Virus record (IMG/VR): IMGVR_UViG_3300020477_000133
Location: 1 to 23,837 of that record
Reading direction: 5' to 3' (one strand)
Length of the DNA stretch: 23,837 nt
From: a virus
A model generated the notes under the pieces. The model saw nothing but the letters and a program-made list of their open reading frames with translations, did not search any database and had not been told where the DNA came from. The translations under genes were made by a program, and so were the position numbers. This document shows, piece by piece, positions 1-19,463 of the stretch (position 1 is its first letter; each line of letters starts with the position of its first letter).

Positions 1-1626
1 ACTTACTTAGGAAATCCTCTTTTAAAGGCTGCATACATCCAACAAGATTGGACAGAGGAACAGGTAGGCGAATATGTTCGTTGTCAACAAGATCCCCTTC
101 ATTTTGTAAGAGAGTACATAAAAATTGTTTCGGTTGATGAGGGTTTGGTTGAATTCGATGTTCGTGATTATCAAAAAGAAATGATTGACAAATTTCACAA
201 TGAACGATTTGTGATTTGCAAGATGGCCCGTCAATCTGGTAAGTCAACCACTATCCTTGCATATCTCCTTCATTACATCCTTTTCAACGAGAATGTTTCG
301 GTTGCAATTCTTGCAAACAAGAAATCTACTGCAATGGAACTTCTTGGAAGATTGCAACTTGCATACGAACATATGCCCAAGTGGTTGCAACAAGGGATCT
401 TGATTTGGAACAAAGGTAACATAGAACTTGAAAACGGCTCCAAGATTCTAGCAAGTTCAACATCTGGATCTGCAATTCGAGGTGGTAGTTTTAATATTAT
501 ATTTCTAGACGAATTTGCATTCGTGCCTTCCAATATTTCAGAAGAATTTTTCAGTTCAGTTTATCCTACAATTTCGTCTGGTAAAACCACAAAGGTATTC
601 ATTGTTTCTACACCAAACGGAATGAATATGTTTTACAAGTTGTGGACAGATGCAGAAGAGGGAAATAATGATTACTCTCCTATTTCGGTTCATTGGTCGC
701 AAGTTCCAGATCGTGATCAAGAGTGGAAAGAAAAAACGATACGAAATACTTCAGAGCGTCAGTTTCAACAGGAATTTGAGTGTTCATTTTTGGGGAGTTC
801 TAATACTCTTATCTCAACTGAAAAACTTATGTCCATGCCATTTAAACAACCAGCATTTTCTCATGAGGGATTGGATGTTTATCAAGAACCAATTCAAAAT
901 CATACGTATGTTATGATTTGTGATGTGGCCAGGGGTGTAGGACTTGATTACTCTGCATTTTCAGTATTTGATGTATCTAAACAACCATATCGACAAGTCG
1001 CAAAATATAGAAAAAATGACATTTCTCCTATGTTATATCCGAATGTGATTTATACAACCGCTAAGAAATATAATGATGCATTTGTTTTAGTGGAAGTAAA
1101 TGATATCGGCCAACAAGTTTCTGATATTTTATATCATGATATGGAATATGATAATATGATGATGGTCACTATGCACGGCCGGAATGGTCAACAAATTGGT
1201 GGTGGATTTTCCAAGAATGTGTCAATGGGAATTCGGACTACAAAACAAGTCAAAAGAATTGGTTGTGCAACTCTCAAGGATTTAATCGAAAGAGACAATC
1301 TTCTTATTGATGATTTTGATACTATCTCAGAATTAACAACCTTTATCGGTAAGAGTACATCATGGGAAGCTGATGATGGATGTAATGATGATTTGGTAAT
1401 GTGTTGTGTTATTTTTTCTTGGTTGGTGCAACAAAGGTATTTTAGAGAATTGACAGATCAAGATATTCGTGAAAAGATGTTTGCAGAACAAATGAAAATG
1501 ATTGAGGAAGAACTCGTTCCTTTTGGTTTTATTGAAGATGCAAATGATCCAGAAGAATTTTCGATTCCAGGCGATAATAGTGTATGGAGTCCGGCCGGTG
1601 ACAAAAATCAATTTGAGTATTTTTAA
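1..1626 (+). CDS. gp17: Terminase large subunit (gp17-like), 5' end outside window
   Basis: ATP-driven DNA packaging motor with a headful nuclease, which docks on the portal. The frame is open from base 1, and its first residues (YLGNPLLKAA, later VDEGLV and DYQKEM) look like the T4 gp17 region just before the ATPase, so the true start lies upstream; a TTG at 145 is internal. Numbering visible residues from base 1: Walker A RQSGKS at 77-82, Walker B IIFLDE with D170/E171, coupling motif VSTPNG, then the RNase H-like nuclease with acidic residues D308 (ICDVARG), E365 (VLVEVND) and D463/D464 (DDLVM). There are 541 visible residues; T4 gp17 has 610. Comparing the Walker lysines suggests roughly 80-90 residues are missing. 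The stop codon overlaps the end of the convergent HNH gene by a few bases. Confidence 0.96.
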   Translation, partial: TYLGNPLLKAAYIQQDWTEEQVGEYVRCQQDPLHFVREYIKIVSVDEGLVEFDVRDYQKEMIDKFHNERFVICKMARQSGKSTTILAYLLHYILFNENVSVAILANKKSTAMELLGRLQLAYEHMPKWLQQGILIWNKGNIELENGSKILASSTSGSAIRGGSFNIIFLDEFAFVPSNISEEFFSSVYPTISSGKTTKVFIVSTPNGMNMFYKLWTDAEEGNNDYSPISVHWSQVPDRDQEWKEKTIRNTSERQFQQEFECSFLGSSNTLISTEKLMSMPFKQPAFSHEGLDVYQEPIQNHTYVMICDVARGVGLDYSAFSVFDVSKQPYRQVAKYRKNDISPMLYPNVIYTTAKKYNDAFVLVEVNDIGQQVSDILYHDMEYDNMMMVTMHGRNGQQIGGGFSKNVSMGIRTTKQVKRIGCATLKDLIERDNLLIDDFDTISELTTFIGKSTSWEADDGCNDDLVMCCVIFSWLVQQRYFRELTDQDIREKMFAEQMKMIEEELVPFGFIEDANDPEEFSIPGDNSVWSPAGDKNQFEYF

Positions 1627-2081
1627 AGATAACTATTACCTTTAGTTTCTTTTTCAAATCCAAAATCATCTTCTTCTTTCATTTCTTCAGAAACTAACAT
1701 CATCAATAGTGCATCAATTTCTTCTTCTAATTCTGGTCTGACATTTCTAAGACGAAAAAGATATTTAATACTTTCTTTTTCTACCATTTCTTTACTAACA
1801 CGAACTGAATTGTAATTTTTTTTATTTTGACTCTTAGTTTGTAATTCTAAATGGTCTGGATTGACACAACTATTATTTTCGCAAGTTTGATGAACAACCA
1901 TATTTTCTGCAATTTGACCTTTATGAAGAAGATATGCAAATCTATGTGCTGGGAGAGATTTCCCATCGTAAGAAAACATACCATATCCTTGTTTTTGTTT
2001 TGCTGCATTCCAAAGGTGGCAATCTGTTGATTTTGTTATCTTTGCATTAAAACGATCAATGGCTTTTTGTGGGAACTTCAT
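1623..2081 (-). CDS. HNH endonuclease (HNH_3-type, homing-endonuclease-like)
   Basis: 152 residues. The core has the layout of the HNH_3 family: CHLW near residues 21-24, GYGMFSYDGK, AHRFAYLLHKG, then CENNSCVNPDHLEL with two Cys and the NPDHL box. Such genes are usually free-standing homing endonucleases of phages. No separate NUMOD-type DNA-binding domain is apparent; the C-terminal third is helical and acidic. The residue two before the first motif Cys, usually His in relatives (HxC), is Gln (VVHQTC), although a His lies one residue earlier; activity is therefore uncertain. The ATG at 2081 has an AAGG about 7 bases upstream. The gene is the only clear minus-strand gene, sits between gp17 and gp18 (adjacent in T4), and runs convergently into the terminase stop. 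Function as a nuclease is from family knowledge. Confidence 0.85.
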   Translation of the reverse strand: MKFPQKAIDRFNAKITKSTDCHLWNAAKQKQGYGMFSYDGKSLPAHRFAYLLHKGQIAENMVVHQTCENNSCVNPDHLELQTKSQNKKNYNSVRVSKEMVEKESIKYLFRLRNVRPELEEEIDALLMMLVSEEMKEEDDFGFEKETKGNSYL

Positions 2082-4518: not shown

Positions 4519-5097
4519 ATGGCAACTCAAACAGAACCAAACACATTTTCACTTGCTAAATTAAAAACGGCACTCGCACAGGGGGGTGCCCGTTCAAATT
4601 TATTTGAATTTACTATTACATCTTCACCGATAGGTACAGTAGATGATAAAAAATTTAAGGATTTGGCATATTTGTGTAGTGTTTCGGCCTTTCCCGGCGT
4701 GGAAATTACTCCTATAGAAAGAGCACATTATGGTAGAATGAATAAATTTCCAGGCGATATGGTTTTTGCAGATCTAACTACTACAATATATCAAACAGAA
4801 GGTGGTTTAGAACATACAAATATTTTAAAATGGATGGATACTATAAATGCTCCTAATGCAAATATTATGAAAGCTGAAGTGGAAGCTGGAATGGATCATA
4901 CAGGCACAGGAAAACTATTTGCAAGAACCAAAGGTGGAGGTACTGCATTAACAACAACATTTATGGATATGTTTCCTACATCCTTGAGCGAAATAGCACT
5001 TAGTTATGATACTACAAGTGATTTTGAACAATTTGATGTTACATGGGCATATCAATATTTTACACACCATCCTACTGGTGGAACAAAATTAACTTAA
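4519..5097 (+). CDS. gp19: Tail tube protein, copy 1 (gp19-like)
   Basis: 192 residues (T4 gp19 has 163). It forms the inner tail tube through which DNA passes. Landmarks shared with the next two genes: FSLAKLKTALAQGGARSNLF at the start, a FPG turn near residue 58, GRMNKFPGDMVFADLTTTIY, ILKWMDTIN, and the C-terminal MFPTSLSEIALSYDTTSDFE followed by a WAYQYF strand. It is the shortest copy and lacks the Gly/Ser-rich tail of the other two, so it is the best candidate for the main tube subunit. A GGAG ribosome site sits 11-14 bases before the ATG. It is followed after 10 bases by copy 2. Confidence 0.92.
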   Translation: MATQTEPNTFSLAKLKTALAQGGARSNLFEFTITSSPIGTVDDKKFKDLAYLCSVSAFPGVEITPIERAHYGRMNKFPGDMVFADLTTTIYQTEGGLEHTNILKWMDTINAPNANIMKAEVEAGMDHTGTGKLFARTKGGGTALTTTFMDMFPTSLSEIALSYDTTSDFEQFDVTWAYQYFTHHPTGGTKLT

Positions 5098-5107
5098 AAG
5101 GAATTAG

Positions 5108-5767
5108 ATGGCATTTGCAGTAAACTCTTTTAAATCAAATTTATATAATACTGCCAATGGTGGTGGTGCTCGTCCATCTCTATTTTCAGTAAATATAGAC
5201 GCTTTCACAGCAAGAGAAAACTTACTTGTTAAGGCGGCAGCGATTCCAGGGCGAACTATAAATCCTGTTACTGTAAATTGGTTCGGAAGAGCATATAAAT
5301 TTTCTGGAAATAGTACATATGATATTTGGACTGTTACGATAATGAATGATGAAGATTTTTCACATCGTAATGAGATTTTAAATTGGATGAGAGAAATATC
5401 TGGATCATTAGATGGATCACGAACTTCTGCTCTAGGGGGAGTTACTGGTGGGGCCGCTGTTGGTACAGCTACAGTTACCCAAATAAATGCTGATGCAACA
5501 CAAGGTCAACAATGGGAATTTAAAAATATGTGGCCTTCATCATTGGGAGAAATTGCGGTCGATTGGTCAAATGATGCAGTTCAGGAGTATACTATTGGAT
5601 TTGCATACGATTATTTTACAAAATCTATTGGTGGAACAAAACAAGGAACTGATAATACTCAAGGATCTAAACCAACTGGTGGAGATTCAAGCGGAGTTAC
5701 CCAAAACCCCACAATTCCCGGCAAATTCGGTATGAATGATGGTGGATTCGGAGGAGCTCTTGGATAG
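5108..5767 (+). CDS. Tail tube protein, copy 2 (gp19 paralog)
   Basis: 219 residues and the same fold signature as its neighbours: NGGGARPSLFSVNI, IPGR, GRAYKFSGNSTYDIWTVTI, ILNWMREIS, and MWPSSLGEIAVDWSNDAVQE followed by a FAYDYF strand. It differs from copy 1 by a Gly/Ala-rich insert near residues 115-128 and by a Gly/Ser/Thr/Pro-rich C-terminal extension of about 45 residues after the last strand. The extension could hang into the tube lumen, contact the sheath or be disordered; this is inference. An AAGGAA ribosome site lies in the 10-base gap after copy 1, so the pair is cotranscribed. It may be a minor or end-specific tube subunit. Confidence 0.88.
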   Translation: MAFAVNSFKSNLYNTANGGGARPSLFSVNIDAFTARENLLVKAAAIPGRTINPVTVNWFGRAYKFSGNSTYDIWTVTIMNDEDFSHRNEILNWMREISGSLDGSRTSALGGVTGGAAVGTATVTQINADATQGQQWEFKNMWPSSLGEIAVDWSNDAVQEYTIGFAYDYFTKSIGGTKQGTDNTQGSKPTGGDSSGVTQNPTIPGKFGMNDGGFGGALG

Positions 5768-5808
5768 TCACATCGTGATTTTAAAAATTAGATAGATAGT
5801 AAAAATGA

Positions 5809-6465
5809 ATGGCAGCAAATCAGTTCAGCGTAACGAAATTAAAATCAAGTTTAGCACAGGGAGGGGCCCGTCCTTCCCTGTTTTCGGCATCAATAACATA
5901 TCCCGCGGGTCTTACTTTACCTGAACCTTCCACTAAGGCCAAATTTCTTATTAAAGCCTCACAAATTCCCGCATCTACAATTGGGTCTTATGATGTATTT
6001 TTTCATGGTAAAGCAATAAGAGTTGCGGGTGATCGAACCTATGACACTTTAGATACTACAATATATAATGATGAAGATTATGGTATTAGAAAAGTTCTTG
6101 AAAAGTGGATGAATATGATCTCGCACAGTCACCTAAATATAAGAAAATATTCAAGAAGTACAGCTGCACTTGAAGGTACAGGTGCAAAATATAAATCTAC
6201 TATTACTGTAACCCAACATAGTAAAGCTGGTGGAGATTTGAGAACTTATACATTTCATGGTGCATGGCCATCAAATTTATCAGCTATTGCACTTGATTGG
6301 GGATCGGCGAGTGATATAGAAGAGTTTGTGTGTACTTGGAATTATGATTATTGGGATGCTAAAGATGGTAGTTCACCAAGTACATCGGGATCACACGATT
6401 CTGGTACATCTGAAACAAATAATATAATTACTGGTGGAGATCCAATGCTTTATGAGGAGTGGTAA
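5809..6465 (+). CDS. Tail tube protein, copy 3 (gp19 paralog)
   Basis: 218 residues. The N-terminus (FSVTKLKSSLAQGGARPSLF) is close to copy 1, followed by IPASTIG, GKAIRVAGDRTYDTLDTTIY, NDEDYGIRKVLEKWMNMIS, and AWPSNLSAIALDWGSASDIE before a WNYDYW strand. A Ser/Gly/Thr-rich tail of about 35 residues ends in DPMLYEEW. NDEDY/F is shared with copy 2, so copy 3 mixes features of both neighbours, as expected of an old tandem triplication. The 41-base leader lacks a convincing ribosome site; an overlapping ATG at 5805 opens another frame that does not give a tube protein, so the ATG at 5809 was chosen. Confidence 0.88.
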   Translation: MAANQFSVTKLKSSLAQGGARPSLFSASITYPAGLTLPEPSTKAKFLIKASQIPASTIGSYDVFFHGKAIRVAGDRTYDTLDTTIYNDEDYGIRKVLEKWMNMISHSHLNIRKYSRSTAALEGTGAKYKSTITVTQHSKAGGDLRTYTFHGAWPSNLSAIALDWGSASDIEEFVCTWNYDYWDAKDGSSPSTSGSHDSGTSETNNIITGGDPMLYEEW

Positions 6466-8057: not shown

Positions 8058-8339
8058 ATGGCAGAACAAGCAACAAAGAAACCTTTTAAGACAGTAGATC
8101 TTGTGGATTTTGCAATGCAAGGGAAACCAACAAGAGTAAATGATGCATTTGATCAATTGATTTCAGATAAAGTCATAACTTCTCTTGCAAGTAAAAAACA
8201 AGAAGTTGCAACACGAATATTTTCAGATAAAGATCAGGCAATAGGACAAGTGTCAATGGATGCAGATAATCCAGAAATTCAAGTTGCTGATTTTTCTGAA
8301 CCAAAACAAGAACCAGAAACAATAGAGGTAGAAGCATGA
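8058..8339 (+). CDS. gp67: Prohead core protein (gp67-like)
   Basis: 93 residues. The central segment (NDAFDQLISDKVITSLASKKQEVATRIF, about residues 28-55) resembles the equivalent part of T4 gp67, a small internal scaffold protein in which an F-A-E helix is followed by a Lys-rich helix ending in ARNFL. The C-terminal third is acidic, as in gp67, but lacks its long Asp/Glu run. Its position directly after the portal gene is where T4 carries gene 67. It presumably fills the prohead core and is cut by gp21 during maturation. GGAG precedes the ATG. Its stop overlaps the start of the next gene by ATGA. Confidence 0.75.
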   Translation: MAEQATKKPFKTVDLVDFAMQGKPTRVNDAFDQLISDKVITSLASKKQEVATRIFSDKDQAIGQVSMDADNPEIQVADFSEPKQEPETIEVEA

Positions 8340-10834: not shown

Positions 10835-12214
10835 ATGCAACTCTCAGAACAAATTAACAAGAAGTGGGCACCAGTTCTTGATCATCCAGATCTTCCTGAG
10901 ATCAAGGATGCACATCGCCGAGCAGTAACCGCTATATGTCTTGAAAATGTTGAAGCTCAATATGCTCAAGATAATAATCAAAGTGGAATGCTTATGGAGG
11001 CAGCCCCAACTACAATTATGGGTGTTGATGCACCCGCAGTTGGTCAAGGTGGTGTTGCAGGAAATCCAACACACGCTGCTCAAGATTTTGCAGACCCAGT
11101 TCTTATAAGCATGGTTCGCCGTGCAATGCCACAACTTATTGCTTATGATATTTGTGGTGTACAACCAATGTCCGGCCCAACTGGATTGATCTTTGCTCTT
11201 AAAGCTCGTCTTTTGTCAGACGGAGGAACTTCCCAACAATGGACATCAGAATTAGATCAAGTTGGTGGGGAAGATGGTCATGCATCTGGTGACTTAGTTG
11301 CTACGCCTGGTCTATTGATTGACACCGCTGGTGCTGGTGAAACTGGTACGGAATATACTTCATCGAGGGCGTCTTCAATGTCTGGTGGTGAAGGTGACAC
11401 TCCAGCTGCAATGTCCTTTTCAGTTGAAAAGGTTTCTGTTGCTGCAGGTACACGTGCCCTTCAGGGTTCATACTCAATGGAACTTGCACAAGATTTACGT
11501 GCAGTTCATGGATTAGATGCAGAAGCAGAACTTGCAAATATTCTGTCTGCTGAAATTCTTGGAGAAATCAATCGTGAAGTTGTTCGTAGAATTTATATTA
11601 GTGCTGATATCGGAGCTCAGGCTGGTGTAACAACAAGTGGAAGATTTGATCTTGATACAGATTCCAATGGACGTTGGATGGTTGAAAAATTCAAAGGTCT
11701 GATGATGCAAATCGAAAAAGATGCAAATCAGATTGGTAAAGATACTCGCCGAGGAAAAGGAAATATTATAATAACATCTTCAGATGTTGCTTCCGCTCTT
11801 CAAATGGCAGGTATGTTAGATTACGCTCCTGCAATGAGCACAGATCTTAACACAGATACGGCCGCATCTACTTTTGCTGGTGTTCTGAATGGACGATACA
11901 AAGTATTTGTAGATCCATATGCTGATGCAAATGCAGCCGAGTACTACTGTGTAGGTTATAAGGGTGATTCACCTATGGATGCTGGAATCTTCTACTGCCC
12001 ATACGTTCCATTGCAAATGGTTCGTGCGGTTGATAGTGATAGTTTCCAACCTAAAATTGCTTTCAAATCCCGATACGGAATTGTTGCAAATCCATTTGCC
12101 GAAAATGCAGAAGCATCTACTGGATATGTTGCTTCAATGCTTAATACCGCAAATCACCTTGGAGCACACTCCAACAAGTACTACAGAAAAGTTCGTCTTG
12201 CGAACCTTATGTAA
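10835..12214 (+). CDS. gp23: Major capsid protein (gp23-like)
   Basis: 459 residues (T4 gp23 has 521). Forms the hexamers of the head. Family signature MVRRAMPQLIAYDICGVQPM with SGPTGLIFALKAR is intact at about residues 90-125, as are VEKVSVAAGTRALQGSYSMELAQDLRAVHGLDAEAEL and the C-terminal KIAFKSRYGIVANPF. The N-terminus carries a gp21-type site, LME before AAPTT, predicting removal of residues 1-55, close to the known removal of the first 65 residues in T4. AAGGAG precedes the ATG. A strong terminator follows, so it ends the late head operon. No gp24-like vertex gene is seen next to it. Confidence 0.97.
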   Translation: MQLSEQINKKWAPVLDHPDLPEIKDAHRRAVTAICLENVEAQYAQDNNQSGMLMEAAPTTIMGVDAPAVGQGGVAGNPTHAAQDFADPVLISMVRRAMPQLIAYDICGVQPMSGPTGLIFALKARLLSDGGTSQQWTSELDQVGGEDGHASGDLVATPGLLIDTAGAGETGTEYTSSRASSMSGGEGDTPAAMSFSVEKVSVAAGTRALQGSYSMELAQDLRAVHGLDAEAELANILSAEILGEINREVVRRIYISADIGAQAGVTTSGRFDLDTDSNGRWMVEKFKGLMMQIEKDANQIGKDTRRGKGNIIITSSDVASALQMAGMLDYAPAMSTDLNTDTAASTFAGVLNGRYKVFVDPYADANAAEYYCVGYKGDSPMDAGIFYCPYVPLQMVRAVDSDSFQPKIAFKSRYGIVANPFAENAEASTGYVASMLNTANHLGAHSNKYYRKVRLANLM

Positions 12215-12243: not shown

Positions 12244-12276
12244 AAAAGGGAGGGGAGAAATCCTCTCCCTTTTTTT
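12244..12276 (+). terminator. Intrinsic terminator of the capsid operon
   Basis: AAAGGGAGGGGA (12245-12256) pairs with TCCTCTCCCTTT (12261-12272) around a GAAA tetraloop. This gives 12 pairs with one G-U, and a 13th A-T pair if 12244 and 12273 are included. A run of seven T at 12270-12276 follows. It is the only strong intrinsic terminator I see in the window, and it separates the head genes from the sugar-modification cassette. Confidence 0.93.
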
Positions 12277-12304: not shown

Positions 12305-13003
12305 ATGATAGTTGTAATCGGAAATGGTTCATCTCGTTCAGTCATAAAATTAGAACAATTAGACAATGAAATCACTTATGGATGTAATGCCATATATCGT
12401 GATTATTCTCCAACTCATTTAGTATGTGGTGATGGCCCAATGACATGGGACATTTGTAGAAGTGGATATTCTGTAAAAAATCAATGTCATTTTAAAATGT
12501 TTGATCGTTTGCCAGGAATACAATATGATATGATAAAAATGTCAATTCCACCAAATATGAAAATTCTTGAAACAAAAGAACGAACAGAAGAGTTTGTTAT
12601 GTTTGGTGATGGAGGAACTACTATCATATATTGGGTACATCCAGAAGAAAAAACCGAAAAACTTGAATGGTGGGATGAAGAACATTTTTCTACATCATAC
12701 AATTCTGGAACGGCAGCTCTGAGGTTGGCCTGTTTACATCATCCAGGCGAAACTATCTATTGTATTGGATTTGATTATTATCTAGATCGAACTGCTGATA
12801 ATATCTATTTGGGAACATCTCATTATCTTGGTACATTAAGTGCAGTTACTACCCAATTTGAAAATTTAAAAGATACCGAATCAGATCCCGAAACATGGAT
12901 CAAACAACATAAACGAATTGAAGAAGAGTTTCCAGAAAATAAAATTCTTCATGTGGGGAAACATTTGAGTTATGCTGAGTTTGAAAATTTACTGAATAAA
13001 TAA
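12305..13003 (+). CDS. Putative glycosyltransferase, GT42/DUF115 (MptE-like) type
   Basis: 232 residues. The N-terminus VVIGNGSSRSVI with GCNAIYRDY, and NSGTAALRLACLHHPGETIY leading into CIGFDYY (residues 133-159), follow the layout of Cst-II-like sialyltransferases (GT42) and DUF115 proteins: a glycine-rich nucleotide-sugar site near the start and a SGxxA helix before an IGxD strand. It probably transfers a sugar from a nucleotide donor onto a glycan or protein; donor and acceptor cannot be read from sequence. GAGG precedes the ATG. It is the first gene after the gp23 terminator and no clear promoter lies in the 28 bases between, so it may depend on readthrough. The pairing with a second transferase and an LpxA-like acyltransferase supports a glycan role. 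Confidence 0.65.
   Translation: MIVVIGNGSSRSVIKLEQLDNEITYGCNAIYRDYSPTHLVCGDGPMTWDICRSGYSVKNQCHFKMFDRLPGIQYDMIKMSIPPNMKILETKERTEEFVMFGDGGTTIIYWVHPEEKTEKLEWWDEEHFSTSYNSGTAALRLACLHHPGETIYCIGFDYYLDRTADNIYLGTSHYLGTLSAVTTQFENLKDTESDPETWIKQHKRIEEEFPENKILHVGKHLSYAEFENLLNK
12987..13002 (+). repeat. 16-base direct repeat, left copy, with late box AATAAATA
   Basis: ATTTACTGAATAAATA occurs here, at the 3' end of the GT42/DUF115-like gene, and again at 14370-14385. The last 8 bases (12995-13002) are AATAAATA, a match to the NATAAATA late box, 18 bases before the next ATG. The two copies bracket the next two genes. They may be recombination scars or two copies of one promoter. Confidence 0.6.
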
Positions 13004-13020
13004 ATTATTGCCTTCTTAAT

Positions 13021-13752
13021 ATGATAACTTTTATAACTGCTCTTTTTGATGGTGAAAAATTAAGAATTCCACATTCCACAAAAATTTATGATGGAACTTG
13101 GGTTGATAAACTCTATCGTGGGATACAAAGATATTATGATGGTAACTTTGAATTGGTTTGTTTAGTGGACAGAGAATATGATGATATTAAAGAACCAGTT
13201 CGTCAGATAAAGTTTTTAGAAATGGGAAGAGGATGGATTTGTATTATTGAAAAATATCGGCCAGACATAACTTGGGGAAAAAGATTCACTCTTGGATTAG
13301 ATACTGTAATTACAGGTGATCTTAATAAAATTTGTTCTTTTGAAAAACCTATGGGTATGATTTCTGACCCTCTGGAATATAATAAAGTATGTAATGGAAT
13401 CACGATAGCTAGTAAAAAAGCAAGTAATAATATTTGGGATATTTGGGAAAATAATAAAGAATGGGTATATAAAAATTTTACCATGTTTGATAATGTTCCA
13501 TCAGAAATGTTGTTACTAAGGAAATTGTTCGACTATAATGGTCAATGTCCTAGGCTTGATAAAATTTATCCAAATACTATTGTAAGTTATAAATGTCAAT
13601 ATGTACCATATATTGAAAAATGTAATTTTGAGGACGTTGACTATTTAGAAAAAATAAAAAATATCTCTATTGTTTATTTTCATGGAAACCCCAAACCAAA
13701 TGACCTTAAAAATATTGAAATAAATAAAAAAATATTAGAGAATTGGATATGA
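13021..13752 (+). CDS. Putative GT-A-fold glycosyltransferase
   Basis: 243 residues. The pattern fits a family of GT-A-like glycosyltransferases: N-terminal MITFITALFDG strand, WVDKLYRGIQRYYDGNFELVCLVD, RFTLGLDTVITGDL (residues 88-101), a CNGITIASKKA segment in place of the usual acceptor-side N-G motif, and a C-terminal FHGNPKPND box with the His expected to help bind metal or diphosphate. In relatives the middle motif usually reads DxDTVI; here the first Asp is Gly (G92-L-D94), so metal binding may be altered. No ribosome site is seen before the ATG. A late-type AATAAATA box lies just upstream. The stop overlaps the next gene by ATGA. Confidence 0.7.
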   Translation: MITFITALFDGEKLRIPHSTKIYDGTWVDKLYRGIQRYYDGNFELVCLVDREYDDIKEPVRQIKFLEMGRGWICIIEKYRPDITWGKRFTLGLDTVITGDLNKICSFEKPMGMISDPLEYNKVCNGITIASKKASNNIWDIWENNKEWVYKNFTMFDNVPSEMLLLRKLFDYNGQCPRLDKIYPNTIVSYKCQYVPYIEKCNFEDVDYLEKIKNISIVYFHGNPKPNDLKNIEINKKILENWI

Positions 13753-14360
13753 GTCATATTTATATTTCACCATTACCAAAAGAAGAAAATATAATACATA
13801 ATTCGGCCATAATTGAGTGGGAACACTTTACGATAGGTAAAGGAAATCAAATTAATCCATTCGTTTACATAGGTGGAGATGCAGAACATTTCAGAGAAAA
13901 AACTGAAGGATACGTACAGATAGGTAATAATAATACCATTAGAGAGTTTGTCAATATCCATAGACCAACTGGATTAAGTAAATGTACATCAATTGGTAAC
14001 AATTGTTATATTATGGTACATACTCACATATCACACGATTGCATAATTGAAGATGATGTTCAGATGAGTGTAAGAGTAACAACGAGTGGACACAATCATA
14101 TAATGAAAGGTGCTAATCTTGGACATGGTTGTATCATTCATCCGTGGCAAATTGTAGGTTCTTATGCTATGATTGGTATGGGAACTGTTATTCCAAAAAA
14201 GACCAGAGTAGAGCCAGGATATATCTATGTGGGTAATCCTGCTAAAAAATTAAAATTAAATGAAATTGGTTTGGAAAGACAAGGTATTACAAAGGATATG
14301 TTAGATATTGAAACCAATCGTTACAATGAATTGATGGAAAAATATCCATATAATGTATGA
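13749..14360 (+). CDS. LpxA-like left-handed beta-helix acyltransferase
   Basis: 203 residues from the ATG at 13749, which overlaps the previous stop as ATGA; a TTG two codons earlier is less likely. Hexapeptide repeats (IGKGNQI, IGNNNTI, IGNNCYI) give a left-handed beta helix. The region IREFVNIHR, HTHISHDCIIEDD, GANLGHGCIIHPW, VGNPAKKLKLNEIGLERQGI follows E. coli LpxA block by block. His96 corresponds to catalytic His125 of LpxA, and His115 and His126 fall at or near its other conserved histidines. LpxA puts a hydroxyacyl chain on UDP-GlcNAc in the first step of lipid A synthesis. The helical C-terminal domain of LpxA (262 residues) is mostly missing here, so the substrate may be another nucleotide amino sugar. 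Confidence 0.85.
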   Translation: MSHIYISPLPKEENIIHNSAIIEWEHFTIGKGNQINPFVYIGGDAEHFREKTEGYVQIGNNNTIREFVNIHRPTGLSKCTSIGNNCYIMVHTHISHDCIIEDDVQMSVRVTTSGHNHIMKGANLGHGCIIHPWQIVGSYAMIGMGTVIPKKTRVEPGYIYVGNPAKKLKLNEIGLERQGITKDMLDIETNRYNELMEKYPYNV

Positions 14361-14369
14361 CTTAAAAAT

Positions 14370-14385
14370 ATTTACTGAATAAATA
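14370..14385 (+). repeat. 16-base direct repeat, right copy, with late box AATAAATA
   Basis: Identical to 12987-13002. Here it is intergenic, and its AATAAATA (14378-14385) lies 28 bases before the gp3-like ATG, a good distance for a late promoter. It follows the acyltransferase stop by 9 bases. Confidence 0.65.
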
Positions 14386-14413: not shown

Positions 14414-14947
14414 ATGGCCGCAGCAAATAAAATACCAGACAACTTAAACTATCTTTCCAACATCAGTTTTCGACTGACAATGGAAGATGCACCAAATATG
14501 ACATGGTTTTGTCAGGCAGTCAATATTCCAGGCGTAACAATAGAAGCAATTGAAGTGCCAACCCCAATGGTAAACATTCCTTATCATGGAAGTAGAGTTG
14601 CATTTGAAGAATTGTCTGTTCGTTTTATTGTAGATGAACATTTAAAAAATTGGATGGAAATTTATGACAGAGTTGTAACTCTTGGACTTGTAGAGGGTGG
14701 AGAAGAATATAGACAACTTCATGCAAAATCTACTACAACTGCAAGGGGAGGAACAGTTTCCACGATTGTTCTTACTCTTTTGACAAGTGCAATGAATCCT
14801 CAAATACAATTTCATTTTTACGAAGCCTTTCCTATTTCTATTTCTGCACTTGATTTCGATAGTGCATCCGTAGATTTAGAATATTTTACTGCAACTGCGA
14901 TGTTTCGATACACTAATTATAAGGTAAAGAATCTATTAGACAATTGA
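14414..14947 (+). CDS. gp3: Tail completion and sheath stabiliser protein (gp3-like tail terminator)
   Basis: 177 residues, almost the length of T4 gp3 (176), which caps the top of the tail tube and sheath and joins tail to neck. The pattern IPDNLNYLSNISFRL, WFCQAVNIPGV, EVPTPMVNIPYHG, then SVRFIVDEHLKNWMEIYDRV is that of a tail-tube fold, and the terminator protein is related to the tube fold. Position before uvsY and uvsW is where marine T4-like phages carry gp3. The alternative is a fourth gp19-type tube or cap protein; it lacks the QGGAR start shared by the three gp19 copies. AAGGAA lies 7 bases before the ATG, and a late box is upstream. Confidence 0.72.
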   Translation: MAAANKIPDNLNYLSNISFRLTMEDAPNMTWFCQAVNIPGVTIEAIEVPTPMVNIPYHGSRVAFEELSVRFIVDEHLKNWMEIYDRVVTLGLVEGGEEYRQLHAKSTTTARGGTVSTIVLTLLTSAMNPQIQFHFYEAFPISISALDFDSASVDLEYFTATAMFRYTNYKVKNLLDN

Positions 14948-17569: not shown

Positions 17570-18621
17570 AGATTGCTTTGCTGACAGACACACATTTTGG
17601 TGCAAGAAACGATAGTTTGATTTTTACAGATTTTTTCCGAAAATTCTATGAGAATATATTTTTTCCTGTATTGAAAGAAAGAGGAATCACAGAAGTTATT
17701 CATTTGGGTGATGTGGTTGATCGAAGAAAGTTTATCAATTACAAAACACTCAATTCAATGAAAGATATTCTTTTCACTCCTCTCAAAGAGATGGGTGCTG
17801 AAATCAAAGTCATTGTTGGAAATCACGACATCTATTACAAAAACACTCTTTCTGTAAACTCAATGACAGAGTTGACAAAAGGAATGGATCATGTAACAGT
17901 TTATGCAGAGCCATGTGAAGTATCTTTGACTAAAGATCATACTGCATTGTTTGTGCCGTGGATATGTGATGATAACGAAGATCATACAAAAGAGTTGATT
18001 GAAAAAACAAGAGCTCCAGTTGCATTTGGTCATCTTCAAATTGAAGGTATCGAACAACACAGAGGTTCTTTTGCAATTGATGGTCATCCTAAATCAATGT
18101 TCAAGGCCTTTCAAAGAGTTTTTTCTGGACACTTTCATCATCGTTCTACTACAGGAAATATTACATATCTTGGAAATCCTTATGAAATTACATGGAGCGA
18201 TTATAATGATAGAAGGGGGTTTCATATTTACGATACTGAAACAATGGAAACGGAGTTTGTAGAAAATCCTTATTCAATGTTTCATAAGATTTATTATAGA
18301 GATGATAAAACAGATTATGGAGATATTTCCAGATATGAAAATTGTTATGTGAAGATAATAATTGAACAAAGACAAAATTCTTATATGTTTGAAACTCTAA
18401 TGGATAAATTGTTGGATGCTGGAGTTGGGCATATCTCAGTAGTGGATAATCTTTTTGATATTGAAGATTTAGGAGATGATATAGAAAGTATGGAAGATGT
18501 GGAAGACACAATGAGTGTGATTAAAAGTTGTGTCGATGGTTTACAAATCGAAAATAAAGATGAATTGAATAAATTAATGCAAACACTTTATAATGAAGCA
18601 CTAACCGCGGAGACAGTATGA
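17566..18621 (+). CDS. gp47: Recombination endonuclease subunit gp47 (Mre11-like)
   Basis: 351 residues from the ATG at 17566 (T4 gp47 has 339); the GTG two codons earlier is less likely, because this ATG forms an ATGA overlap with gp55 and has AGAGG upstream. It is the nuclease partner of gp46 and resects DNA ends for recombination-dependent replication. Calcineurin-type metal motifs are complete: DTHFG (D8, H10), GDVVDRR (49-), GNHD (85-88), GH at 155-156 and SGHFHH (187-192). The C-terminal quarter, rich in Asp/Glu and helical, would contact the gp46 coiled-coil base. It is separated from gp46 by two genes, similar to the interruptions seen in T4. Confidence 0.95.
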   Translation: MKIALLTDTHFGARNDSLIFTDFFRKFYENIFFPVLKERGITEVIHLGDVVDRRKFINYKTLNSMKDILFTPLKEMGAEIKVIVGNHDIYYKNTLSVNSMTELTKGMDHVTVYAEPCEVSLTKDHTALFVPWICDDNEDHTKELIEKTRAPVAFGHLQIEGIEQHRGSFAIDGHPKSMFKAFQRVFSGHFHHRSTTGNITYLGNPYEITWSDYNDRRGFHIYDTETMETEFVENPYSMFHKIYYRDDKTDYGDISRYENCYVKIIIEQRQNSYMFETLMDKLLDAGVGHISVVDNLFDIEDLGDDIESMEDVEDTMSVIKSCVDGLQIENKDELNKLMQTLYNEALTAETV

Positions 18622-19463
18622 GTACTAGACAAGAACGAAGACGAGCAGAACGAGTTGCAAAAAAGACAATCAAAAAAGAAATTCGTCCTCGTACAGAAGT
18701 AGATTCGAGAAAGATGGTCGAATACAATATGGAAGCTAAGTTATTACAGCCTTGGTCTGCTCCTGTTATGGCAACTAAATTACCAGATCCAGTTCTTGGA
18801 AAAATGATAGAAATAACAGATGAGATTGTTGATGATAAAAAACAACATAAAAGTTGGGGTCATAATCTTGCAGGACAAATTGAAACCGAATTACTTATAC
18901 CACATAAAAAATTAGAAGAAGCGGGTATAATGACATTTTTTATGGATACAATTAGACAATTTGTAATTCAATGTAAAAGTCAAATGCACCCATTTCAAGA
19001 AGAATCTATTCGTGCAGAAACTTGGTTGACTCAAATGTTATCAATGTGGATTGTCTCTCAATTTCCAAATGAATACAATCCAATGCATTTACATACACAA
19101 TGTCATGTTTCTTCTGTTATGTATTTAAAAGTTCCAAAATTTGATGAGTCAATAAAAAAACATAGACCAGAGGATGATGGATCTATTCTTTTTACAAATT
19201 CAGCGGGAAGGGATCAAGAGTTTTGTACTCCGAATTTCAATATAGTTCCAAAAGTTGGGGATTTTTTTATATTTGGAGCACATCAATATCATGCAGTTTA
19301 TCCTTATCGTTGTTCTGTGGGAGATCCAGAACGTAGAAGTGTATCTTTTAATGCAATATTCAAATCTAAAACTCAACATGATATAGACATGAAAAATCAA
19401 AAAGAACAACAGGAAGCAAATATGAGAGAAGTTCAAGGCCTTCCAAAAGATTTAAGATATTAA
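18618..19463 (+). CDS. 2-oxoglutarate/Fe(II)-dependent oxygenase (putative)
   Basis: 281 residues. WIVSQFPNEYNPMHLHTQCH (144-163), VSSVMYLKVP, GDFFIFGAHQYHAVYPYR (214-231) and ERRSVSFNAIF (238-248) match the 2OG-FeII_Oxy_5 type jelly roll: likely iron ligands His157/His159 and His222 or His225, and an Arg (239/240) for 2-oxoglutarate. The N-terminus is very basic (RQERRRAERVAKKTIKKEIR), possibly binding nucleic acid. The substrate is unknown; protein or nucleic-acid hydroxylation are both possible. Genes of this family are common in marine T4-like phages. It is coupled to gp47 by ATGA, so it is made with the recombination proteins. Confidence 0.82.
   Translation: MSTRQERRRAERVAKKTIKKEIRPRTEVDSRKMVEYNMEAKLLQPWSAPVMATKLPDPVLGKMIEITDEIVDDKKQHKSWGHNLAGQIETELLIPHKKLEEAGIMTFFMDTIRQFVIQCKSQMHPFQEESIRAETWLTQMLSMWIVSQFPNEYNPMHLHTQCHVSSVMYLKVPKFDESIKKHRPEDDGSILFTNSAGRDQEFCTPNFNIVPKVGDFFIFGAHQYHAVYPYRCSVGDPERRSVSFNAIFKSKTQHDIDMKNQKEQQEANMREVQGLPKDLRY

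Follow-up and report, generated by a model that had tools for sequence, protein, structure and literature searches.

A predicted glycosyltransferase and short LpxA-like acyltransferase gene pair inserted beside a resident GT42/MptE-fold gene, between the capsid and tail genes of a marine T4-like phage

In pelagimyophages, genes related to LPS are clustered in twos or threes, with GT8 glycosyltransferases as the commonest type, and a change of the host O-chain directed against co-infection has been proposed as their role (PMC7029224); the LPS genes of cyanophages (P-SSM2-type) form the same kind of groups and have received the same proposal (PMC2984593, PMC7824862). In phage P1, the genes pmgO and pmgQ are non-essential and have no reported function (PMC10695390). 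The locus described here lies in a 23.8-kb fragment of a T4-like phage from an uncultivated virus record (the whole stretch of 23,837 nucleotides is termed the window), and resembles the LPS-type clusters in that at least two glycan genes stand together in a phage of the cyano-T4 group.

The major capsid protein gp23 of the window is 55-56% identical to those of the Pelagibacter phages HTVC008M and Mosig, and about 55% identical to that of Methylophilales phage Melnitz. Three genes, termed A, B and C, are located between gp23 and a gp3/gp19-like tail gene (Table 1); the first-pass annotation had placed them in this order and 3' of the gp23 terminator, and a hairpin does precede A. The ORF of C was listed from a TTG at 13743, and an alternative ATG at 13749, which overlaps the stop codon of B as ATGA, yields the 203-residue protein. 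The dN/dS values of orthologues (A, about 0.09; B, about 0.15; C, about 0.27) indicate purifying selection on all three genes, which are therefore not chance ORFs. Other features of the window comprise an HNH endonuclease gene between gp17 and gp18 (1623-2081, minus strand; PF13392, E = 2e-10), probably for a homing endonuclease, three diverged gp19-like (tail tube-like) paralogues in tandem (4519-6465), which are found also in relatives such as L016, and a 2OG-Fe(II) oxygenase gene (18618-19463; PF13759, E = 6e-17) among replication genes.

Table 1. Features at the gp23-tail site of the window
Feature	Position	Strand	Remarks
Major capsid protein gp23	10835..12214	+	PF07068, E = 2e-127
Rho-independent terminator-like hairpin, 3' of gp23	12244..12276	+	Kept in relatives
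Gene A, putative GT42/MptE(DUF115)-fold glycosyltransferase	12305..13003	+	232 aa; resident of the gp23-gp3 site in this lineage
Left copy of 16-bp direct repeat, ATTTACTGAATAAATA	12987..13002	+	Last 16 nt of A
NATAAATA, late-promoter-like element in left copy	12995-13002	+	26 nt before B
Insert comprising B, C and a single repeat copy	13003..14385	+	Lacking in L001 and other relatives
Gene B, PHROG_1962-family glycosyltransferase, distantly GT8-like	13021..13752	+	243 aa
Gene C, short LpxA-like left-handed beta-helix acyltransferase	13749..14360	+	203 aa; His93 and His96 in HTHISHDC
Right copy of 16-bp direct repeat	14370..14385	+	Exact; 3' of C
NATAAATA in right copy	14378-14385	+	Late-promoter-like element that belongs to the tail gene; 36 nt upstream of it
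Tail tube/tail completion (gp3/gp19-like) protein	14414..14947	+	PHROG_45 tail tube, E = 2e-33

Gene A on its own matched PHROG_30607, of unknown function (E = 3e-26), and no Pfam family, while a scan of IMG/VR yielded at least 579 relatives with the motifs GNGxSR and YGCNxxYRD. A profile of 47 members matched GT42 sialyltransferases (Cst-II, whole-sequence E = 2e-5), aligned at GNGxS, CN, SG and GxD, and at E-values up to 10 it matched no MptE or thiamine pyrophosphokinase (TPK) sequence in the PDB. In Pfam, the commonest weak matches of the 47 relatives were to MptE-like and CST-I; the MptE-like family (PF01973/DUF115) was matched at E up to 0.1 by seven of them (best, 3e-4) and not by A itself. 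The AlphaFold2 model of A that was made from the 47-sequence alignment (pLDDT 91, pTM 0.89) had GT42 Cst-II as its top match in the fold search (VIA Z 9.9, 169 residues, rmsd 4.2), tied with HPPK/MptE of M. jannaschii (Z 9.4), and followed by thiamine pyrophosphokinases (Z about 8.5), GT29 and SteA (Z 8.0); among the matches listed, Z falls to 4.4 below this group. An earlier structure from 16 close orthologues (pLDDT 59), which gave no useful fold match, was superseded by this model. Profile and model bear out the initial GT42/DUF115-like call for A.

The catalytic base of GT42 is His188 of Cst-II. This base is missing in A, since no histidine is conserved in the family (at most 51% His in any column of the 47-sequence alignment). 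A gene for CMP-NeuAc synthetase (PF02348) was found in one of nine large contigs tested and not in the other eight. By its model A is of GT42/MptE fold, from which identity as a sialyltransferase does not follow. The usual position of A in marine phages is between gp33/ThyX/gp59 and gp32 (e.g. L191, L201, L205-L227), a site distinct from the capsid-side one and likewise favoured. Several A-family genes, all annotated as hypothetical, are present in Pelagibacter phage HTVC008M, including a gene flanked by UvsY and UvsW and another adjoining gp32 (L025 8259-9089, L028 4180-4983); Mosig, too, has genes of the A type. A 175-kb contig (L041, 2445-5612) carries a row of GT2-like, hexapeptide acyltransferase, GT42/DUF115-like and fused B-type glycosyltransferase genes, adjoining what appear from the sequence to be large structural genes.

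Gene B gave a full-length match to the PHROG_1962 glycosyltransferases (E = 1e-31, residues 18-231), in agreement with its initial assignment, and its relatives include PmgQ of P1 and HdmD of P7. Throughout the marine subfamily of B the motif is GLDT(V/I), whereas P1-type members have DLDTV; the usual DXD is thus without its first Asp (GLD, not DLD). Searches of the PDB with B alone or as a profile gave no significant match; the best GT8 chain in the profile search had E = 0.08, a resemblance to solved GT8 structures that is only suggestive.

For gene C, the LpxA-like call with a conserved catalytic His block was confirmed by matches to NCBIfam PRK05289 (E = 2e-40; 138.5 bits, below the cut-off of 226) and PDB entry 8e62 (E = 6e-30; a literature search on this entry returned nothing relevant), supplemented by TIGR01852 (131 bits, below the cut-off of 231) and hexapeptide repeats (PF00132, E = 2e-14). 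The HTHISHDC of C aligns to HIAHDC of LpxA with the His pair of the HxxHD catalytic block kept. The protein has 203 residues compared with 256-270 for most cellular LpxA aligned, and the N-terminal coils and the C-terminal region of the latter are absent in its clade, which is separate from long cellular LpxA and is made up of further phage proteins plus a single protein from Pelagibacteraceae. Judged by score and length, C is a putative LpxA-like left-handed beta-helix acyltransferase and not an LpxA equivalog. The nearest cellular relative found (51%) is encoded on a Pelagibacteraceae contig (L273, 4977-6522) and is followed by a GT4 glycosyltransferase gene, a possible host counterpart of the pair. 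Several phage matches to C were set aside as host lpxA in contaminated or unverified records.

Single-protein scans found no relatives of B and C, and alignments were needed. The scan with a C alignment gave 66 loci, with 49 strong C loci including the window; B is directly upstream in 42 of these and within 1 kb in two, and of the remaining five, three are cut by the contig end and two are without B. The 4-nt overlap of B and C recurs in 29 of 38 complete pairs, and over 19 dereplicated pairs the distances within the two families are correlated (Mantel r = 0.83, p = 0.0002); the related contigs compared in this analysis are partly non-independent. B-C travels as a unit in dozens of other ocean virus contigs, and its two members diverge together. 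The pair is located mostly elsewhere than at the capsid site, with many copies adjoining clamp-loader gp62 and RegA (gp44/gp62/regA replication region), and a GT2-type gene accompanies it at several loci. At the two C loci without B, the neighbours are sugar-nucleotide genes for Gfo/Idh and a DegT aminotransferase (L120) or, as read from the sequence, DegT- and epimerase-like ORFs (L166). The first five large contigs with B-C or C to be examined each had an A-family gene elsewhere, and the L127 record had none.

At the gp23-tail site itself, A stands alone in 24 related contigs (L001-L020, L185-L188), and one further contig (L202) has two A-type genes. The first-pass annotation had read A, B and C as one cassette that jointly fills the gap between gp23 and the tail gene; this reading is ruled out by the 24 relatives with A alone and by the occurrence of B-C mostly at other sites. 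A is the fixed resident and B-C, the sole extra, is an inserted pair. The three genes do occur together elsewhere, as L039, the one other contig with B-C here, has the order A'-B'-B-C at the same site (B 77% and C 52% identical to the window) with the A-type gene joined directly to the three glycan genes; the trio is thus a real and rare overlap of two modules. In other marine T4-like phages the site is empty (Mosig) or holds a small ORF (HTVC008M) or a homing endonuclease gene (S-H34).

The insertion has left a scar. In relatives, the end of A leads directly into the tail gene via GAATAAATAGTA, while in the window the inserted segment is bordered by two exact copies of a 16-bp repeat, the right one of which is followed by the relatives' own tail-gene leader. 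Identity to L001 is 95% in A and 76% in the tail gene, a drop consistent with recombination at the insertion border. Each repeat copy contains NATAAATA, a motif reported to mark late promoters in cyanophage S-PM2 (PMC2984593), and in 20 out of 20 relatives the end of A retains the element, even where the A frame ends differently. All seven plus-strand NATAAATA sites of the window are within 80 nt upstream of gene starts, a zone of 8.3% of the window, and precede gp18, a gp19 copy, the gene at 8058, gp22, B, C and the tail gene. The assignment as promoters is motif-based, and the elements are termed late-promoter-like. The one before C may be due to chance, since it is not common to L039 or to the regA-type loci; in the gp44/gp62/regA region, NATAAATA was found before B or C in none of 90 tests.

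For the function of the locus, we favour a putative modification of host-surface glycans (LPS/O-chain-type) by A and B-C, which we rate about as probable as all other readings taken together, because the families handle activated sugars or glycans and because small LPS-type gene groups are known from pelagimyophages and cyanophages. A role in glycan modification, suggested from the sequence beforehand, is in keeping with all three families, and the accompanying suggestion of LPS remodelling with superinfection exclusion is plausible by analogy, having been proposed for such genes already (PMC7029224, PMC2984593). In the scheme that we infer, the small variable site between gp23 and the tail gene brings two units for sugar modification together: A would be a nucleotide-sugar-dependent transferase of GT42/MptE fold, C would acylate a nucleotide-linked sugar or sugar amine, probably with an acetyl or short acyl group, and B would transfer the C-acylated sugar onto a growing glycan. 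The most likely target would be the host surface polysaccharide (LPS/O-chain), whose alteration during infection may result in poorer adsorption of competing phages.

This host-surface role is supported by the family calls for A, B and C, the coupling of B with C, the GT2-type neighbours, the sugar-nucleotide genes in L120 and L166, the Pelagibacteraceae relative of C beside a GT4 gene, and the separation of the C clade from long LpxA. Arguments against it are the late-promoter-like elements of B and the tail gene, as exclusion functions are usually early, the separate occurrence of A and B-C in most phages, so that the two need not act jointly, the marine B subfamily without the first Asp of DXD, and the dispensability of the related P1 genes pmgO and pmgQ.

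Late expression would suit a glycosylation of the virion, in which a capsid or tail protein receives an acylated sugar from A together with B-C, and the genes lie beside the structural genes that they serve. This is unlikely overall, and its more explicit form, with a late-expressed capsid-side GT42-fold transferase and B-C building the sugar on a capsid or tail protein of the phage itself after insertion of B-C with a copied late promoter, is more doubtful still. The capsid-side position of A in 24 relatives, NATAAATA upstream of B (26 nt) and of the tail gene (36 nt), and the related P1 and phiNP transferase genes among late or structural genes speak for it, as does the precedent of mycobacteriophages, which glycosylate capsid and tail-tube proteins with transferases of their own (cited in PMC12363180). 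However, A is mostly found at gp33/ThyX/gp59-gp32 in marine phages, and B-C mostly in the gp44/gp62/regA region, where the 90 tests for NATAAATA before B or C were negative.

That A is instead a pyrophosphokinase (MptE/HPPK or thiamine-pyrophosphokinase type, e.g. in pterin/folate supply for ThyX), with B-C as an unrelated glycan pair alongside, is decidedly unlikely. The Z scores of M. jannaschii HPPK (9.4) and TPK (about 8.5) about equal that of Cst-II, more members (7/47) match MptE-like than any other Pfam family, ThyX is near A in 36 of 85 loci, and the family has no conserved His column, in contrast to the catalytic base of GT42; the profile, however, matches GT42 and, up to E = 10, no PDB sequence of MptE or TPK, and the A-type gene of L039 is directly joined to three glycan genes.

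A hypermodification of DNA, in which the transferases decorate a modified phage base as T4 does with glucose, is very unlikely. Many phages do have A beside gp32, gp59 and ThyX, and B-C beside gp44/gp62/regA, sometimes with a C5-cytosine methyltransferase gene nearby; but DNA glycosylation is disfavoured, since a hydroxymethylase/thymidylate synthase of PF00303 was present in none of nine contigs of up to 177 kb and ThyX in six instead. Furthermore, the C5 methylase is found in just two of 14 contigs, no Tet_JBP match was obtained (in a search without positive control), and cyanomyoviruses have shown no evidence of glycosylated DNA (PMC2984593). That B-C is functionless cargo, kept through chance recombination at a loose site, would fit the variability of the site in Mosig, HTVC008M and S-H34 and the lack of B-C in 24 close relatives, and is barely credible in view of purifying selection between the window and L039, the pairing conserved over 19 dereplicated pairs, and the intact catalytic His residues.

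The locus indicates that glycan genes of ocean T4-like phages enter the structural gene block in small pairs of fixed composition, and that a repeat gives a late-promoter-like element both to the inserted genes and to the gene downstream. A large unnamed GT42/MptE-fold family is defined and, in marine viral contigs, a conserved pairing of a glycosyltransferase with a short LpxA-like protein; if the target were the virion, virion glycosylation would be extended to an abundant marine group.

Compared with known systems, A has the fold and the GNGxS, CN, SG and GxD motifs of GT42 sialyltransferases (Cst-I/Cst-II) and MptE-like/DUF115 proteins, and differs from GT42 in the lack of a conserved His and of a CMP-sugar synthetase in eight of nine large contigs. 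C has the left-handed beta-helix, HxxHD and, in part, the N-x-x-G-L-x-R of LpxA (UDP-GlcNAc acyltransferase), but is about 60 residues shorter, is without the extra N-terminal coils and the C-terminal helical region, and belongs to a separate clade. In P1 (pmgO/pmgP/ppp/pmgQ) and Citrobacter phage phiNP, a GT42-like (sialyltransferase-like) gene is near a PHROG_1962 glycosyltransferase gene as in the window, but there without an LpxA-like partner, at 25-30% identity and in another type of phage. Virion glycosylation is experimentally shown in mycobacteriophages (cited in PMC12363180), whereas in the window it is a rival hypothesis. The LPS clusters of pelagimyophages and cyanophages are likewise found in marine T4-like (cyano-T4) phages with their glycan genes grouped; the searchable text of those reports contains no description of a B-C pair, and unlike these clusters the window has a conserved glycosyltransferase/short LpxA-like pair that is inserted by gp23 beside a resident GT42-fold gene. 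On the preferred reading, the locus is a new example of a class of glycan-modification module for which pelagimyophages and cyanophages already provide descriptions.
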